The position numbers were made by a program, and so were the translations under genes. From a bacterium HR17 (GTDB lineage: Bacteria > Armatimonadota > Fervidibacteria > Fervidibacterales > Fervidibacteraceae): a stretch of DNA of 60,027 nt. Location: contig BEHT01000021.1 in assembly GCA_002898575.1 (NCBI GenBank), positions 1-60,027 on the forward strand, in the 5' to 3' direction. Below, piece after piece: positions 32,105-46,047 of this stretch; position 1 is the first letter of the stretch; every line of letters begins with the position of its first letter. The notes under the pieces are model-generated. The model had not been told where the DNA came from, ran no database searches, and worked only from the letters and a program-made list of their open reading frames with translations.

Positions 32105-32770
32105 ATGGCGTCGAAAAAGGTGCCAAGGAAAGGGCATGCCGCTTTTCGCGCCTTGTATCAAGCGCTGCGACGGGCGTACCCGCAAGCGACCACCGAACTC
32201 GTCTGGCAAAACCCTTTCCAATTGTTGATTGCCACCATCCTGTCCGCGCAGACGACGGACAAAAAGACCAACGAAGTCACGCCCGTTTTGTTCGCCCGTT
32301 ACCCTACGCCCCATGCGCTGGCGGCAGCGGACCCTGCTGAAGTGGAGGCCATCGTTCGCCCGCTGGGCTACTACCGCCAGAAAACTCGCACCATCATCGC
32401 CGCCGCCAAGATGTTGGTGGACCGTTTCAACGGGGAAGTCCCCCGCAGCATGGACGAACTGCTGCAGTTGCCAGGGGTGGGGCGCAAAACAGCGGCGATC
32501 GTGTTGGGCACCGCCTTCGGAATTCAGGAGGGAATCCCAGTGGACACCCATGTCCAACGCGTCGCCCAGCGGCTGGGTTTGACCCGGCAAAAACAGCCGG
32601 AAAAGATTGAGCAGGACTTGATGGCGCTGGTGCCTCGTAGGGAATGGACTTGGTTTGGACACGCGCTGACTCTGCACGGGCGCTATGTGTGCCTCGCCCG
32701 TAAGCCCAGATGCAACGAATGCGTCTTGGAGCCCTACTGCGCTAAGGTCGGCGTCACCCAGCCGTCTTAA
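32105..32770 (+). CDS. nth: endonuclease III
   Basis: A 221-residue DNA glycosylase/AP lyase removing oxidised pyrimidines. The helix-hairpin-helix LPGVGRKTAAIVLG carries catalytic Lys128, and VDTHVQRVAQRLGL carries Asp147. The C-terminal [4Fe-4S] loop has the CX6CX2CX5C pattern (CLARKPRCNECVLEPYC). ATG 32105 is preferred because AGGAGG lies 9 nt upstream, whereas the ATG at 32096 overlaps that site. The stop overlaps the converging dsbD stop by 4 bp. Confidence 0.96.
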   Translation: MASKKVPRKGHAAFRALYQALRRAYPQATTELVWQNPFQLLIATILSAQTTDKKTNEVTPVLFARYPTPHALAAADPAEVEAIVRPLGYYRQKTRTIIAAAKMLVDRFNGEVPRSMDELLQLPGVGRKTAAIVLGTAFGIQEGIPVDTHVQRVAQRLGLTRQKQPEKIEQDLMALVPRREWTWFGHALTLHGRYVCLARKPRCNECVLEPYCAKVGVTQPS

Positions 32771-34452
32771 AGGGTGCCGCTTCGCCTTTGCACCACCGCT
32801 TCCAACCGCTTCAAAAACTGTTCGGGCGGCTCAAACCCTTCCAGCCGCAAGTCCTTGTGCTCCTTCCCATCAGGTCCAATGAACACAACGGTCGGCAACC
32901 CCCGCACGCCGAAGCGCTGCGCCGCTGCGTTGGCGACAGGGTCTTTGCCCGTCGTCATGTCCACCTGCAGCGTGACGAAATCGCGCAGCCGCGCTTGAAC
33001 GCGCGGGTCGCTGAAAGTTTTATGCTCTAACTCTTTGCACGCCAAGCACCATGTCGCCCAAAAGTCAATGACAACGGGTTTGCCCTCGGCGATAGCGCGT
33101 TCCAACGCTTGGGGTGTGTAGGGTTGCCACGGGTGCTCACCCTTCAGCCAACCGAAGGCATATGCCGTCTGAACGCCGAAATAGATCGCCGCTCCCAACA
33201 GCACGACGCCGAAAAAGCGATTGACCCACACATTCCATTTGCCGCTGCGCAGCTTTTGAGCGGCTCCGACAAACACTGCCAGCAACAGGTAAGGTAACCC
33301 TAGCCCCAACGACAGCGTGACGAAGAGTGCAAAGAGCGTCAGGGCGTCCAGCAACGGGGCGGCTCCCAACAGGGCGATGACGACCGGACCGACGCACGGC
33401 GCTGCGACGACACCGATCAGCAGCCCCATCAAAAACGCTCCCACCAACTTCAGGGCAAACTTGGGGGCGCTGACTAACTGCACGCCCGTTTGAAACCCTT
33501 TTGCCGCTGACTGGGGTGTCATGAACTCAAAAGCGCCAAACATGCTCAACGCCAGCACGAACAGGACGACGGTGACTGCCAGCAACACCCACCCGTTTTG
33601 CAGCACTGCGCCGAACATCGTGCGGGTCAGAGCGGCGACCAGTCCTAAGGTCGCATACATCGTCACCAGCCCCAACAGGAATGCTGCGCCCAGCAACACA
33701 CGCCGCGCCAAAACCCCTTCCGCTTGCCGACCGAAGTAGCCGATAACGACGGGCACCATCGGGAACACACAAGGGCTCAAGTTCATCAGCACGCCGCCCA
33801 AAAACACCAACACCAGCCCCCAAAACAAATGGCGTCCCGAAAGGGTGTTGGCGATCAGCCCGCTCAACCCGCCTGCCGCCGGAGCGTTTTCGGTCGCCTT
33901 CTGCGGTTGCGACGGGCTACCTTTGAGGTCGGGTGGCAAACCCTTGAACACCTCTGGGTTAGCGGGCTTAACCGGCGCATTGGGCGGCACAACTTCCGCT
34001 GGCACCGTTACGGTCAGGGTGCGGGGCGGAAAACACGCTTTGTCGTCGCAGGCTTGGTAACGCAATCGCAGCGTCAGCGTGTATTTGCCGGGCTTAACGC
34101 CTTTTTCAGCGCGGAGCAACACAGCAAAGGTTTGTTTCCCCTCGTAAAGCGGCAACTTCTGCCCCAGTACCTCTTTCGTCACCGTCGGCGGATACCAAGT
34201 CCGCACGAGGGTGAAGCCCTTGGGTGCCTCAACCGTAAGGGTCGTGGCGATGAAGCCCTTGGGGGGATTCGGGGCTTGCAAATGGTAACCCTCTTTGATG
34301 TCGGCGACCAGCGCGACGCGGAAGGTGCTCCCCTGCCGCACCTTGTCCACATCCAGAAAAGCACTGCCTTTAACGGTCTCAGGGGCTCTCAGTTGCGCCC
34401 CGACAACGCCTGACAACACCAACAACCCCAGCCAAAGGACACTTCGGCGCAT
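32767..34452 (-). CDS. dsbD: thiol:disulfide interchange protein DsbD
   Basis: A 561-residue membrane protein passing electrons from cytoplasmic thioredoxin to periplasmic partners. Signal peptide (RRSVLWLGLLVLSGVVGAQ); periplasmic alpha domain to ~200 with a Cys-containing CDDKACFPPRTLTV; eight-helix beta domain with the redox cysteines in LSPCVFPMVPVVIGYFGRQ and APCVGPVVIALLG; and a C-terminal thioredoxin-like gamma domain with CLAC in WATWCLACKELEHKTF (about residue 470). ATG 34452 has GAGGTG upstream. Its nearest upstream same-strand gene, 138 bp away, is the glutaredoxin-like probable selenoprotein, so thiol redox genes cluster here. Confidence 0.94.
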   Translation of the reverse strand: MRRSVLWLGLLVLSGVVGAQLRAPETVKGSAFLDVDKVRQGSTFRVALVADIKEGYHLQAPNPPKGFIATTLTVEAPKGFTLVRTWYPPTVTKEVLGQKLPLYEGKQTFAVLLRAEKGVKPGKYTLTLRLRYQACDDKACFPPRTLTVTVPAEVVPPNAPVKPANPEVFKGLPPDLKGSPSQPQKATENAPAAGGLSGLIANTLSGRHLFWGLVLVFLGGVLMNLSPCVFPMVPVVIGYFGRQAEGVLARRVLLGAAFLLGLVTMYATLGLVAALTRTMFGAVLQNGWVLLAVTVVLFVLALSMFGAFEFMTPQSAAKGFQTGVQLVSAPKFALKLVGAFLMGLLIGVVAAPCVGPVVIALLGAAPLLDALTLFALFVTLSLGLGLPYLLLAVFVGAAQKLRSGKWNVWVNRFFGVVLLGAAIYFGVQTAYAFGWLKGEHPWQPYTPQALERAIAEGKPVVIDFWATWCLACKELEHKTFSDPRVQARLRDFVTLQVDMTTGKDPVANAAAQRFGVRGLPTVVFIGPDGKEHKDLRLEGFEPPEQFLKRLEAVVQRRSGTL

Positions 34453-34589
34453 CGGTATCACCTCGTCAGAACGGTCAGCCACCTGCCGACGGCTGCCATG
34501 TCTCATAGACGCAGCCGCACCGCGAACCGTTCCCCGAGGGGCGAGGGCGTAACGCCATCCCCGACGCCACGCGCTCGCCTGCCCATCCC

Positions 34590-34826
34590 TCACGAAAGCC
34601 CCAACGCCTTGGCAAGTTCGTCAGGCTTGAAGCCGACGATGACGGTGCCGTCAATGATCGTCACGGGCACCGCCCGAATGCCCATTTTCCACAACTCATC
34701 CATTGCTTGCGGGTCGTCCGAGACATTCCGTTCAGTGAACGCGATGCCCTTCTGAGAAAGCCACGCTTTCTCTTGAGCGCATGCCCCTCAACCCTTCGCC
34801 GTGTAGATGACGACTTGCTTTGCCAT
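34590..34826 (-). CDS. probable selenocysteine-containing glutaredoxin-like protein (UGA at codon 13)
   Basis: Read through the TGA at 34788-34790, the frame gives 78 residues. It begins AKQVVIYTAKG, then TGA-Gly-Ala-Cys, so residue 13 and Cys16 form a UxxC redox motif in the position of the glutaredoxin CxxC. The rest is a typical thioredoxin fold of the glutaredoxin/NrdH type: QEKAWLSQKGIAFTERNV, and AVPVTIIDGTVIVGF with the cis-Pro. GGAGGTGA lies 6 nt before ATG 34826, and the stop is at 34590-34592. A perfect hairpin follows the TGA (next entry). The gene begins 17 bp after the Gfo/Idh gene ends and precedes dsbD. A Cys-to-stop mutation is the alternative, but the intact frame and hairpin favour selenocysteine. 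No sel genes are in the window. Confidence 0.8.
34754..34772 (-). promoter_or_regulatory. candidate bacterial SECIS element
   Basis: On the minus strand, GAGAAAGC-GTG-GCTTTCTC forms a perfect 8-bp stem with a GUG loop, inside the coding frame (residues 19-25). The loop begins 23 nt after the TGA. Bacterial SECIS elements, as I recall the published consensus, have a short apical loop with an early G or GU, 16-37 nt after the UGA, on a stem of 4-16 bp. All these criteria are met. This site would bind the SelB elongation factor. Confidence 0.75.
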
Positions 34827-34843: not shown

Positions 34844-35890
34844 CTAAAGTTTTGCATCGCGTCTGTCGTCCAACAACTCCGCTAAGTCCACCCACTGGTG
34901 CCGTCGCGCACTTTCAATGGCCCCGAACACCATCGCCAAAGTCCGCAGGTTATCGCGGGCGCTGCATTCGGGCTCTCGCTTCTCCCACACCGCCGTCACG
35001 AACTCCGTCAAAACACCCTTCGTGTCTGCAAATTCTATCTCGTCCAACGGCAATTCTTGTTGCACGACTTGGTCGCCAGGGTGCGAACGGGTATAAATCA
35101 AGCGTCCATCTTCCCAAGTCAAGCTGCCCCGTTCGCCCTCAATGCGCCAATCACCCTGCCAGTGGGTCATCTTCCCGACGCTGCAGCCCAGTGCGTGATG
35201 GGTGACGACGATGTTGCCCTCAAACTCAAACACGACGGTGTGTCCGACATCGCCCTTGTGCCACCCCCACGGAGCGTTCCAAGTGTGTGCCCATACCCGT
35301 AGCGGTTCGCGCCCCAGCACAAACCGCAGCGTGTCAAAGTGGTGCACCGCCATCTCAACCAGCAGAGCGAAAGGCATTTCTACATAGTGCGCTCCTCTGC
35401 CCCAAGGGCGATAGAAGCCGACGACCACCGTGTTAACCGCGCCCAAGAAACCCTCCGCCAACAATCGGTGTGTCGTGCGGGGCAAGGCACCGAAGCGGTA
35501 ATTTTGCGCGACCATGTAAGGCACTTGGGCTTGCACAACCATCGCGACGATGCGTTTTGCTGTCACCCAATCAGCCCCCATTGCCTTCTCCGCCAACACG
35601 GGCAGACCGTGCGCCAGCGCCGTTTCCGCAATGCGTTCCCGCACCATCGGTGGCGTCACATCCAGCACGAAATCCGCGGGCACCGCTTCTAACGCGTCCT
35701 CCAGCGACGCGAACAGTTGCTCATCCCGCAACCCCCATTGGGCTTTCGCTTGTTCCCGCCGTTCAGCGATGGGCTCTACACACGCTACCAGCGTCACCCA
35801 ATCGCCCATTTGTTGACACACTTGCAACCAATGCCGTCCCCGATTGCCCAGCCCGACCAAAACGCACCGCAATGGTTGCCGCTCACTCAC
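34844..35890 (-). CDS. Gfo/Idh/MocA family oxidoreductase
   Basis: A 348-residue NAD(P)-dependent sugar dehydrogenase-like protein. The Rossmann nucleotide loop is VLVGLGNRGRHWLQV. VLAEKAMG contains the EK pair of the family, and HHFDTLRFVLG lies in the C-terminal dimerisation and substrate domain. GDVGHTVVFEFEGNIVVTHH is typical of members acting on sugars or inositols. The substrate is unknown. Its ATG overlaps the stop of the upstream glycosylase gene by 4 bp, and the selenoprotein candidate starts 17 bp after its stop, so all are likely co-transcribed. Confidence 0.9.
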   Translation of the reverse strand: MSERQPLRCVLVGLGNRGRHWLQVCQQMGDWVTLVACVEPIAERREQAKAQWGLRDEQLFASLEDALEAVPADFVLDVTPPMVRERIAETALAHGLPVLAEKAMGADWVTAKRIVAMVVQAQVPYMVAQNYRFGALPRTTHRLLAEGFLGAVNTVVVGFYRPWGRGAHYVEMPFALLVEMAVHHFDTLRFVLGREPLRVWAHTWNAPWGWHKGDVGHTVVFEFEGNIVVTHHALGCSVGKMTHWQGDWRIEGERGSLTWEDGRLIYTRSHPGDQVVQQELPLDEIEFADTKGVLTEFVTAVWEKREPECSARDNLRTLAMVFGAIESARRHQWVDLAELLDDRRDAKL

Positions 35891-41331: not shown

Positions 41332-44300
41332 ATGAGACAACGATGCTCAGCGTTCGCTCTTCTGCTCATTTCAGTAACATGCTTGACAGGAGTGATGGCA
41401 ATGCAAAAGGAGCAAAAGTTCGTCGTCCCTGAAAGTGGCAAGGTGGCGGTGTGGGAAGCGGAGAAAGCGCTCATGTTAGGTTGGCAAGTTATCCCACACG
41501 ACGGGGCAAGTGGCGGCGCTTTCGTTGAACCTACCGCTGACCAGCCCAAGCCTGTCTTGAAGTTTCGCTTCAAAGTGGATAAGCCAACGACCATCAAAGT
41601 TTTTCCCCTTTGGTGGCGACACGGTGAACAAAAAACTGCTGTTCGGTTCCCATCGCAAGTGCCTTACTTGCGCATCCAGCAAATGTTTGAGATGGCATAT
41701 CCTGACCCGAAAAGCGTCACTCGGTTGCCTTTCGCCATCCCTGCCCGCTTCGGTCCTGACGCATTAGATGGTGACGGCGAGCGATTATTTTTCACTGCGC
41801 CTGAGGTAGGTCGCATCGGTATCGTGGATTTGTCAACGGAGCGCATTATCGGCAGCATTGAAGTTGGCGGTTACTTGACAGACTTGATCCTTGACCGCAA
41901 CTTGCATCGCCTTTTCGTTGCCGATGGCATGAACAATCGCATAGTAGTGTTGGAGGCTCAACAGGGCACGAGAGTCGCTGAAGTCCCTGTGCCTGAACTG
42001 CCTTACTCGCTGGCTCTTCATAACGGTCATCTGTTCGTCGCTTGCATGATGGCGAAAAAGGTGGTCGTGCTGGAAACGAAAACGCTGAGAAAAGTGCACG
42101 AGATTGCGTTGCCGTTGCCACCGCAGCATGTTGAAGTGAGGGGTGGGCAATTGCTCGTCTGGCTTGTTCCCGCTGCTTACGATGCTAAAACGCTGACGGA
42201 AACTGAACCAGACCGATTATCGTTCTATCCGCAGCATGTTTTCCCCGAAAATGCATATGAGCCACCTTGCGTTTGGCAAACGCTGAGAGCATTGCAAAAA
42301 GGTGGAGTTGTGCGGTTGTTCAATCGCGTCAGCAGTTTTGGCAGTTTATGGGATGGGCGTTTCCATGTTGAGCCACAGGTTGCCGTCGTGAGAGCGGGAA
42401 ATAAACCGACTCAGTTGCGCATCCAATGGACACTTAACCCGTCTCAACCGCGTGAGGAGGTGTTGGACATCGCAGCGCTCGTCGGCGAAGTGAATGACCA
42501 AGAAGCGTTGCCCGACCGATACTGCGTCGCTGACGGCAAATTCTTTTTTACGCTGCCTTCTTTGGGCAAAGTTGTTTGCCAACCCCTTGAACCTGATGCA
42601 AAGCCCATTTTGCTGGACATCGGCGGTCACTTGACAGATATGACAGCGTTCAGCGATGGCTTTTGGGTGGGCTATCGTGGTTTTGGTGCGATGAGCGGGA
42701 AACCTTTGGACAAAGGTGAGCCATTCGGGGTGCCAATGGGAAAGTATGTGGATGTATGCCTGAGCTTCTTCCCATCGCCTGACATTGGGCGAGTTTACTC
42801 CCCTGATAGCAACCATTACCCAGCAAAGGTTTATATCGCCGACAGCCAAAATAACCGAATCATCGTCGTTAACCCACAAACTTTGCAGGTTGTCAAGAAC
42901 ATCCCTGTAGGCGAGATGCCTATCGCTTTGAACCTGTTTGGGCTTGATTTGTTCGCCACTTGTCGCAAAGGGCAAGAGGTGCTGGTCGTTGATGTGCGCT
43001 CCGATGAAATTGTGCGCCGATGCAAATTGCCTGCTGAGCCAATCTACGCCGATGTCGCCAAGTTTCAACCGTCATACACTGCTACGGAATTTCGTCCACC
43101 TGCCGAAATTGACGATGCGCCCATTTGGTATGTCGCCCACTTCCACCCACTCGCTTTTCGGCTCAGTGATTTCCAGCAGACACAAACCGATGAACTTACG
43201 CTCGTTGATGCTATTCTTTACCGCAGTCGTCAGAGGTTTGTTTGGACAGATGCACAAGGCAGAGAGCATCAAGCCTTCGCCGATAACATGCATACCATCC
43301 GCTTTGATAGTGAGCGTTGGTTGGATGTCAGCGAAGTCACCGACCCGAAGCGCCAAACTGAACCTGCTCAACTCCGTTCGGGTGATGTGCCGGGCACGAT
43401 CACTATTGCGGTTGACGGTGGTGTTGAACACGACTGGATGCGAAACATTTGGATGACGCCGAACGAGCGACGCTTTTTGATCAACCCACCCCAGCATTTG
43501 TGGCAACAAGGCATTGAACCTTTCAGCGAATTCGCCAAGGTTTTCCATGAGTGGAATGCGCCCGCCTTTATGGTGGGTGCAGGAGAACATGTCTTGACAG
43601 TGACAGCGCATAGCCCTTATGCGTGCCTTGACGGTTTGCTGGTCTGGCGGACTTTGGAACGGACAGTGCAAGCACAACTTTTCGGAGCAACTGATGACGC
43701 CGTGAACGATACGCTATTGCCTGCCAGCGTTTTCGCTTCCGATGAACCTGTACAATTCCGCCTCCGCCTATACGCTCAAACTGTACAGCGATTGCGTTGT
43801 CAATGGCAAGTGCTTCACCCAGTTGATGGTATGGTGGCATCTGGTAAATTGACTCTGGATGTGCCTGTAGGCAAACAACGAGAAGTGCTCATCACTCCAC
43901 CATTACATAGGACAGGTTTGTTCACTTTGCGGGTGCAATTGCAATCGGACGAAGGCACATTGCTTTTGGAACGGGTTTTCCTTCGTTTACCGAAGTTGAC
44001 GCATCCCCGTTTGCTATGCCGACCCGAAGCATTGCCTATTATCCACAGGCGTATCGCTCAACATCGGGAACTCTTTCGGCGTTGGCGGTCATGGTTGGAA
44101 CAGCATATTGACGATGCAGATTTCCTGCCAAAGGATTGGACGAGCACGGGGCAAAACTTGGGCGTGGAGTTGGCAAAGTGGCGAGCAATCGCTTGCCTCT
44201 TCGTTGAGTGGGCAATGCCACGAGCCGACGGGCAAAGACCGTTGCTGCAAAAGTTGCTACCGATGCTCAAAGGGCGAGCCAGCGTCAGCGGATGGAGTAG

Positions 44301-46047
44301 TTTCCAGGCGGACTTTCAATTTGGTGGGGCATTAGCAGTGCTTTACGACTTCGCCATCGCTATTGACAAAACTTTTGCGACGACAGCGAAAGCGCAACTG
44401 CAGCCGTCGCTGTTTTTGGAGCGGGCATTACCTGAAACGCTGATGTTGATGGACGAACCGCTGACGCCAACGATGCGGATGGTTCTGAGCAGACACGCTA
44501 TCATGCTGGACAACTATTTGCGCTACTTCGCAGCGCATCAAGGTCAAACGGGCGGGATGCTGTGGCAAGGATTGGGTTCACATTGTCAATGCGCTTTGCA
44601 CTCTATCGCCAGAAGTTTGCTCTTTTGGGGTAACTTCCTTGACGATTTATCCTTTTTGCGGGATGTTTTCGGCAAACTTTACACGCACCTAAATTATGCT
44701 TTGCCCAAGTTTGACCACGATGGCTTCTTAGCGAAGGGAGGTCTGGGGGGCGACCATCCTGGAACGCCTGGCATTGACCCGAAAATTGGGACACTGCCAA
44801 TGCGCTGGCTGTTGGCACACCTGACGGGCAAACCGATGGAACGAGCCTTGCACGATTTGCAACCGTTGATACAGCAATTGGAGCGAGGAACTGAAGCGGA
44901 AGCGATGCGGTTGCTCAGCGAAGGGGCAAATTTCGTTGCGCCTTTACTGTTGGCACTGGGCATTTACGAAACACAAAATTCAACGCTGCAATGGAGCGAA
45001 TTGCCGACAAGTCTGTGCTTTGAAGGCGAAGGGGTAGTGTGTTTGAAGTCCGATTGGTCGCCGACAATGACGGACATTTGCTTTGTTAGTGGGGTCCGCG
45101 ATGTCGCTTACCGCACGCAACCCAATCACCTGCAAATTTTCAAAGCGGGTCGGGTGCTCTTCGGCACGCCCGTCCATATTGTTGACCACGGCACGCCGAC
45201 ACCATCGTGGGCAAATGCTGTTGTCATCGGCGAAGGGTTGCCAAAAGAGTGGGCTGTAGCGATGGGTTATGCCCGTATGGACGAACGGCGCATCGTTAAC
45301 CGTTTTGCGCCTGAAGCGTTGTCCTATGCGCTGCGGGATTTTCGGCGGACAGGAATTGAACCAGAGAGTTATAGGGGCTGGTTTGCAGGGGGGCATGCAG
45401 GACCTGGCATCTACGACTTGACACTTCATTCCCACACGCGGCACCCCTTCATTTCGCAAGGGGCAATCGTAGCCTTTGCGACGCACACGGATTTTGACTA
45501 TGTTGCAGGCGATGCGACTAATGTTTGGCGAGTTGAAGAAGTGAGGGAAGTTTATCGGCAAGTTGTTTTCATCCGACCCGACATCCTCATCGTCTTTGAC
45601 CGCATCAAGTTGAGGCAACTGCGCCCGACGCAATGGTTAGCATCCACAGCACCCGAAGTGCGGATTGATGGTCGGAAGTTTCTCATCGTCAACCGTGATG
45701 CTTTTTTGCAAGGCATTGTTTTGTTGCCTGAGCAAGCGAGCATTGAAGCGTTGGGCGTGCAAACTTTTGCAGGTGGGCGAAAACAAAATCGGCTGCGCAT
45801 CACACCTAACGCACCATCGTTATCGGTCAACTATTTGGTTGTGCTTCAGACAGGCATCAGAGAAACCACACCGTTGGACGCGGAATTGGTCACGGAAGGG
45901 GAGATGATTGGAGCGAAGGTTCGTATCAATGGTCAAACCGTTACGACGCTTTTTCGCCTTGATGGGGCTGTTGGGGGTGAAGTGCGATTTGAGCGAAAGG
46001 GGCAAGAGCAGCGTTATTGTCTTCCTAACGATGGCTTGTGCGAATAG
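41332..46047 (+). CDS. secreted beta-propeller plus heparinase II/III-like protein
   Basis: A 1571-residue exported protein with signal peptide (RQRCSAFALLLISVTCLTGV). Residues ~120-560 are YVTN/YncE-like propeller blades (LHRLFVADGMNNRIVVLEAQ, KVYIADSQNNRIIVVNPQT, VVKNIPVGEMPIALNLFG). Residues ~560-870 are beta-sandwich linkers. Residues ~880-1200 are an alpha-helical toroid (HPRLLCRPEALPIIHRRIAQ). Residues ~1220-1480 are heparinase II/III-like beta sheet (SDWSPTMTDICFVSGVRD, VAYRTQPNHLQIFKAGRVLF, HPFISQGAIVAFATHTDFDY). It is likely a lyase or binding protein for acidic polysaccharide. The fusion of propeller and lyase-like parts is unusual. No frame break is seen. Confidence 0.8.
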   Translation: MRQRCSAFALLLISVTCLTGVMAMQKEQKFVVPESGKVAVWEAEKALMLGWQVIPHDGASGGAFVEPTADQPKPVLKFRFKVDKPTTIKVFPLWWRHGEQKTAVRFPSQVPYLRIQQMFEMAYPDPKSVTRLPFAIPARFGPDALDGDGERLFFTAPEVGRIGIVDLSTERIIGSIEVGGYLTDLILDRNLHRLFVADGMNNRIVVLEAQQGTRVAEVPVPELPYSLALHNGHLFVACMMAKKVVVLETKTLRKVHEIALPLPPQHVEVRGGQLLVWLVPAAYDAKTLTETEPDRLSFYPQHVFPENAYEPPCVWQTLRALQKGGVVRLFNRVSSFGSLWDGRFHVEPQVAVVRAGNKPTQLRIQWTLNPSQPREEVLDIAALVGEVNDQEALPDRYCVADGKFFFTLPSLGKVVCQPLEPDAKPILLDIGGHLTDMTAFSDGFWVGYRGFGAMSGKPLDKGEPFGVPMGKYVDVCLSFFPSPDIGRVYSPDSNHYPAKVYIADSQNNRIIVVNPQTLQVVKNIPVGEMPIALNLFGLDLFATCRKGQEVLVVDVRSDEIVRRCKLPAEPIYADVAKFQPSYTATEFRPPAEIDDAPIWYVAHFHPLAFRLSDFQQTQTDELTLVDAILYRSRQRFVWTDAQGREHQAFADNMHTIRFDSERWLDVSEVTDPKRQTEPAQLRSGDVPGTITIAVDGGVEHDWMRNIWMTPNERRFLINPPQHLWQQGIEPFSEFAKVFHEWNAPAFMVGAGEHVLTVTAHSPYACLDGLLVWRTLERTVQAQLFGATDDAVNDTLLPASVFASDEPVQFRLRLYAQTVQRLRCQWQVLHPVDGMVASGKLTLDVPVGKQREVLITPPLHRTGLFTLRVQLQSDEGTLLLERVFLRLPKLTHPRLLCRPEALPIIHRRIAQHRELFRRWRSWLEQHIDDADFLPKDWTSTGQNLGVELAKWRAIACLFVEWAMPRADGQRPLLQKLLPMLKGRASVSGWSSFQADFQFGGALAVLYDFAIAIDKTFATTAKAQLQPSLFLERALPETLMLMDEPLTPTMRMVLSRHAIMLDNYLRYFAAHQGQTGGMLWQGLGSHCQCALHSIARSLLFWGNFLDDLSFLRDVFGKLYTHLNYALPKFDHDGFLAKGGLGGDHPGTPGIDPKIGTLPMRWLLAHLTGKPMERALHDLQPLIQQLERGTEAEAMRLLSEGANFVAPLLLALGIYETQNSTLQWSELPTSLCFEGEGVVCLKSDWSPTMTDICFVSGVRDVAYRTQPNHLQIFKAGRVLFGTPVHIVDHGTPTPSWANAVVIGEGLPKEWAVAMGYARMDERRIVNRFAPEALSYALRDFRRTGIEPESYRGWFAGGHAGPGIYDLTLHSHTRHPFISQGAIVAFATHTDFDYVAGDATNVWRVEEVREVYRQVVFIRPDILIVFDRIKLRQLRPTQWLASTAPEVRIDGRKFLIVNRDAFLQGIVLLPEQASIEALGVQTFAGGRKQNRLRITPNAPSLSVNYLVVLQTGIRETTPLDAELVTEGEMIGAKVRINGQTVTTLFRLDGAVGGEVRFERKGQEQRYCLPNDGLCE

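Follow-up and report, generated by a model that had tools for sequence, protein, structure and literature searches.

The window analyzed here (the whole stretch of DNA, 60,027 nucleotides in length) carries on its minus strand a frame of 78 codons plus a stop, at positions 34826-34590, that begins with ATG (34826-34824) and terminates in TGA (34592-34590). Inspection of the sequence revealed a Shine-Dalgarno element, GGAGGTGA, at 34840-34833 on the same strand, 5' of the ATG. The sole internal stop of the frame is a TGA at codon 13 (34790-34788), which is followed by codons for Gly-Ala-Cys. When TGA is translated as selenocysteine (Sec; U), the product is MAKQVVIYTAKGUGACAQEKAWLSQKGIAFTERNVSDDPQAMDELWKMGIRAVPVTIIDGTVIVGFKPDELAKALGLS. 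A sequence-only reading had proposed a complete glutaredoxin-like frame of 78 codons with a ribosome site, in which a single in-frame TGA occupies the position of the first Cys of CxxC; the coordinates, the Shine-Dalgarno element, and the Pfam match described below all agree with this. That reading also held that the gene would escape ordinary gene callers, and the frame is indeed missing from a standard six-frame scan for open reading frames of at least 60 aa. Because standard gene callers stop at a UGA codon, the gene would be missing or truncated in annotation.

Two genes on the same strand flank the frame. The upstream neighbor, encoding an oxidoreductase of the Gfo/Idh/MocA family (34844-35890), ends 17 nt before the glutaredoxin start, and dsbD (32767-34452), with its DsbD_N, DsbD_TM, and thioredoxin domains, lies 138 nt downstream. 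The longest open reading frame for dsbD starts at a GTG at 34593 (32767-34593) and overlaps the glutaredoxin stop; the ATG at 34452, just before a signal-peptide-like stretch, is more likely to be the true start. Of the thiol-redox setting suggested earlier for the gene, the adjacency to dsbD stands and the link is positional only; in two related genomes, G002 and G004, an orthologue of the upstream gene (69-70% identical) is followed by neither the glutaredoxin gene nor dsbD. Similarly, no dsbD was recognized by eye among the large open reading frames around the other TGA homologues.

Homology to glutaredoxins spans the whole 78-codon frame. The Pfam Glutaredoxin model (PF00462) matched residues 5-63 with an E value of 8.6e-16 and a score of 58.3 bits, above the gathering cut-off of 22.9. 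Among NCBIfam models, the best matches were to YruB (TIGR02196; 73.3 bits, cut-off 88.55) and NrdH-redoxin (TIGR02194; 63.6 bits, cut-off 85.75), both of which match all ten TGA homologues described below, followed by Uxx-star (NF041212; E value 1.5e-16, 60.3 bits, cut-off 66). Each score falls below the cut-off of its own model, and no current NCBIfam model accepts the protein. The Uxx-star families (NF041212, with NF041114, NF041211, and NF047338) are likewise small and glutaredoxin-like, and in them Sec replaces the first Cys, but the protein encoded here retains the second Cys and scores far below the cut-offs of Uxx-star families 1 to 3. An AlphaFold2 model built from 24 related sequences had a mean pLDDT of 94.9 and matched Grx and NrdH structures, consistent with a thioredoxin fold.

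The closest characterized protein is Grx1 of Clostridium (Alkaliphilus) oremlandii (structures PDB 7c10 and 7c12), a native selenoprotein with U13 and C16 (PMC4479559, PMC7642778). The two proteins are 46% identical over 76 residues without gaps, and Grx1 is the best solved match of the AlphaFold2 model (TM 0.92, rmsd 0.9 Å). Sec at residue 13, as predicted here from the TGA codon, a resolving Cys at residue 16, and a Leu-Ser pair at the site encoded by the SECIS arm are common to both, so that the Sec13/Cys16 arrangement, end-to-end homology, and fold of the Grx1 type are all found in the present protein. The proteins differ in active-site motif (UPXC in Grx1 and U-G-A-C here) and in the phylum of the host. 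Glutaredoxins with a UxxC motif have appeared in catalogues of bacterial selenoproteins from the mid-2000s onward (PMC1794560; reviewed in PMC13188914); these share with the present case a PF00462 domain, the UxxC motif, and a Sec-decoding host, and the present case differs from them by species and lineage only. Because Grx1, whose Sec has an identical residue number, is already characterized, the protein does not represent a new kind.

The host genome, a draft of 75 contigs that is 96% complete, encodes full-length SelB (409 bits), SelA (581 bits), a tRNA-Sec with a UCA anticodon (78 bits), and SelD (L015:1435 onward; G000:C2:7112-8038). The use of Sec by the host, which had been supposed from the window, is therefore borne out by the presence of selA, selB, selD, and tRNA-Sec(UCA) in its genome. 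The selD gene itself contains a TGA within the motif SPKGGUACK, at the known Sec/Cys site of SelD, and is thus itself a selenoprotein gene. Given this machinery and the TGA in selD, UGA recoding is available to the host, and two or more of its genes probably make use of it.

It is conceivable that UGA instead specifies a different amino acid, whether throughout the genome in the manner of genetic codes 4 and 25 or through a suppressor, for example a cysteinyl selC*-like tRNA bearing a UCA anticodon. A second tRNA-Sec-like tRNA with Cys features is present in the genome, as such a scheme might predict, but its anticodon is GCA and not UCA. The only UCA tRNA in the scanned loci is tRNA-Sec itself, which is accompanied by SelA, SelB, and SelD. 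Furthermore, TGA does not serve as a regular sense codon, because the glutaredoxin frame ends in TGA and long genes of the window, such as a 1571-aa frame at 41332-46047, are free of it. Assignment of the codon to an amino acid other than Sec is accordingly very improbable.

Homologue searches yielded 38 homologous loci. At the position aligned with the first residue of the CxxC-like motif, where the earlier reading had proposed to see whether relatives carry Cys or Sec, TGC or TGT was found in 28 loci and TGA in the other 10. The ten TGA loci come from seven genomes in all, namely the host genome, three genomes of the same phylum (two of them multi-copy), and three Chloroflexota records. Extending the search to 291 genomes of the phylum added four TGA relatives from three further assemblies. 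The TGA codon is kept among loci that are only 35-51% identical, and residue 13 and Cys16 account for two of the three invariant columns in an alignment of 24 sequences.

Bacterial SECIS elements are stem-loops located directly after the UGA codon, with a G in the loop. The distance of a hairpin found downstream of codon 13 (34772-34754, minus strand) fits this rule. It consists of a perfect 8-bp stem, GAGAAAGC and GCUUUCUC, closed by a GUG loop; the stem follows a spacer of 15 nt from the UGA, exactly as the sequence-only reading had described, and the loop starts 23 nt downstream of the codon. Taken singly, the hairpin is no more than suggestive. It is only moderately unusual relative to dinucleotide shuffles (z = -2.2), and synonymous recoding of the gene reproduces it in 0.4% of trials in that register and in 5% anywhere in the allowed range. 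Across the family, whose rows are related to one another, the case is strong. A hairpin of 7-8 bp occupies the same spot in 10/10 TGA loci and in 0/28 Cys homologues, and in exact register the TGA loci form 7-8 base pairs compared with 1-5 for the Cys loci. In nine of the ten TGA loci, a three-base loop opening with GU lies 23 nt downstream of the UGA; the tenth (L020) has a 7-bp stem and a 5-base loop containing GUA. Nine further, diverged loci carry this TGA together with the hairpin, a recurrence that cannot be explained by chance. Among the TGA relatives from the wider search, a 7-8-bp hairpin was present in G237 and in one of the two relatives in G245, and a 6-bp hairpin was present in G136; in the TGA relative L089, the hairpin is weak, at only 4 bp.

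The pattern of substitution in the stem supports its interpretation as a SECIS element, a reading made earlier from the single gene and now upheld by covariation in the TGA homologues and by absence of the hairpin from the Cys homologues. Over the 8-bp stem in the ten TGA loci, 96% of cells are paired, whereas shuffles give 82% and slid versions 36-60%. Both sides of the pair are changed in 11 cells, a count that was reached in 0/500 shuffles and exceeds all slid controls. RNAalifold recovered the helix unprompted, and a SECIS covariance model applied to the host genome gave the glutaredoxin gene as the only confident match; the next match (E value 0.27) was dropped, there being no glutaredoxin frame. 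No Rfam family matches the hairpin. The hairpin might be a by-product of coding for a conserved protein helix, with no SECIS role, and for this gene alone the frequency of matching stems among synonymous recodings (0.4-5%) and the modest fold z-score would allow it. Such an origin is exceedingly unlikely in view of the division between TGA and Cys loci and of covariation that reaches a silent base: at the second position of the stem, the middle base of one codon lies opposite the third, silent base of Ser24, and the two are paired in 10/10 TGA loci (as CG, UA, or AU). In addition, the 3' arm codes for Leu-Ser, which is present in 10/10 TGA loci and 1/28 Cys loci and is thus kept almost only together with the hairpin.

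The gene could also be a pseudogene, a Cys-type glutaredoxin disabled by a point mutation of TGC or TGT to TGA. Cys homologues are the commoner form in the sample (28/38), and the nearest relatives at the level of genus, family, and order are without the gene. It is missing from the three other searched genomes of the order-level group in which Sec machinery is present (G002, G003, and G004), and hence a substitution test has no near-identical orthologue to draw on. Decay would scatter lesions, but the remainder of the frame is intact behind a good ribosome site, the TGA is kept despite the divergence of the loci that bear it, and the hairpin is preserved by compensatory changes. There is, in consequence, scarcely any likelihood that the frame is a disabled remnant. 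An error in one base of a Cys codon, which might be entertained for a draft of 75 contigs judged from the assembly alone, is extremely improbable, since the TGA codon occurs in seven assemblies of the first set and three from the wider search, most TGA loci have a hairpin that Cys homologues lack, and the host genome holds a complete Sec machinery.

Taken together, these data indicate that the gene almost certainly encodes a small selenoprotein glutaredoxin, similar to C. oremlandii Grx1 and of NrdH/YruB-like type, in which UGA is read as Sec (CDS, 34590-34826; UGA codon, 34788-34790; SECIS hairpin, 34754-34772). The frame, its homology, the conservation of the codon and of the SECIS element, and the full Sec machinery were established computationally, and from these we infer actual Sec incorporation, enzyme activity, partners, and an electron donor. 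Grx1 provides a direct model for the mechanism (PMC4479559, PMC7642778). The hairpin just past codon 13 would bind SelB carrying Sec-tRNA-Sec(UCA), and the ribosome would then place Sec at the UGA without stopping. In the resulting UxxC active site, Sec13 would act as the attacking selenolate and Cys16 as the resolving thiol, and the product would act in the cytoplasm to reduce disulfides or bonds of a similar type. By analogy with the family, the oxidized glutaredoxin may in turn be reduced by glutathione or by an enzyme resembling thioredoxin reductase. The proposed partner of Grx1 is the selenoprotein MsrA (PMC4479559, PMC7642778). MsrA was not found in the present host genome and is unlikely to fill this role here, so the partner probably differs from that of Grx1.

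In a phylogenetic tree, the glutaredoxin lies near a Dehalococcoidia sequence (support 95/79), and horizontal gain of the gene is possible. Sec forms are intermixed with Cys forms in the tree, a pattern that would be expected if Cys/Sec exchange recurs; seven label changes are needed, two of them forced by well-supported branches, and such switches are not firmly countable because the alignment is short (78 columns). In one genome of the same phylum that is 88% complete and has three TGA copies (G024; L031, L052, and L056), selA, selB, and tRNA-Sec were not found above cut-off. A match of EF-Tu strength is also absent from it, and the assembly is therefore probably incomplete. Tentatively, and with the balance lying slightly against so broad a statement, the TGA homologues may constitute a widespread, mainly Sec-containing glutaredoxin subfamily that extends over two or more phyla and has a near-invariant SECIS element of its own (8-bp stem; GUN loop, 23 nt downstream of the UGA), which imposes Leu-Ser on the protein; the present glutaredoxin may act with a partner that is not MsrA and is possibly linked to the adjacent DsbD.

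The second match to the tRNA-Sec family in the host genome (55.9 bits) lies on the minus strand at L007:1501-1591 (G000:C22:52032-52122) and has a GCA anticodon, a T discriminator, and a long variable arm. Judged by these features, it looks like a selC* tRNA-Cys of the kind described by Mukai and co-workers, which a review lists from Firmicutes, Thermodesulfobacteria, Nitrospirae, and Proteobacteria (PMC7609411). Approximately 20 nt after it, also on the minus strand of L007, is a gene for a CxxC protein of the Rdx (SelW-like) family, MAKLSVRITYCVPCGHQ... (Pfam Rdx, 4e-18). The pairing of a selC*-like tRNA-Cys with a thiol-redox gene may merit a look.

The general picture of selenoprotein biology is unchanged by these results. 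What they would add is that Sec glutaredoxins, and the use of Sec generally, reach a host of the Fervidibacteria lineage. The family-wide hairpin is a tight signature that would be usable to find further Sec glutaredoxins. It also implies that an RNA signal shapes the protein, Leu-Ser being kept in the Sec forms and mostly lost in the Cys forms.
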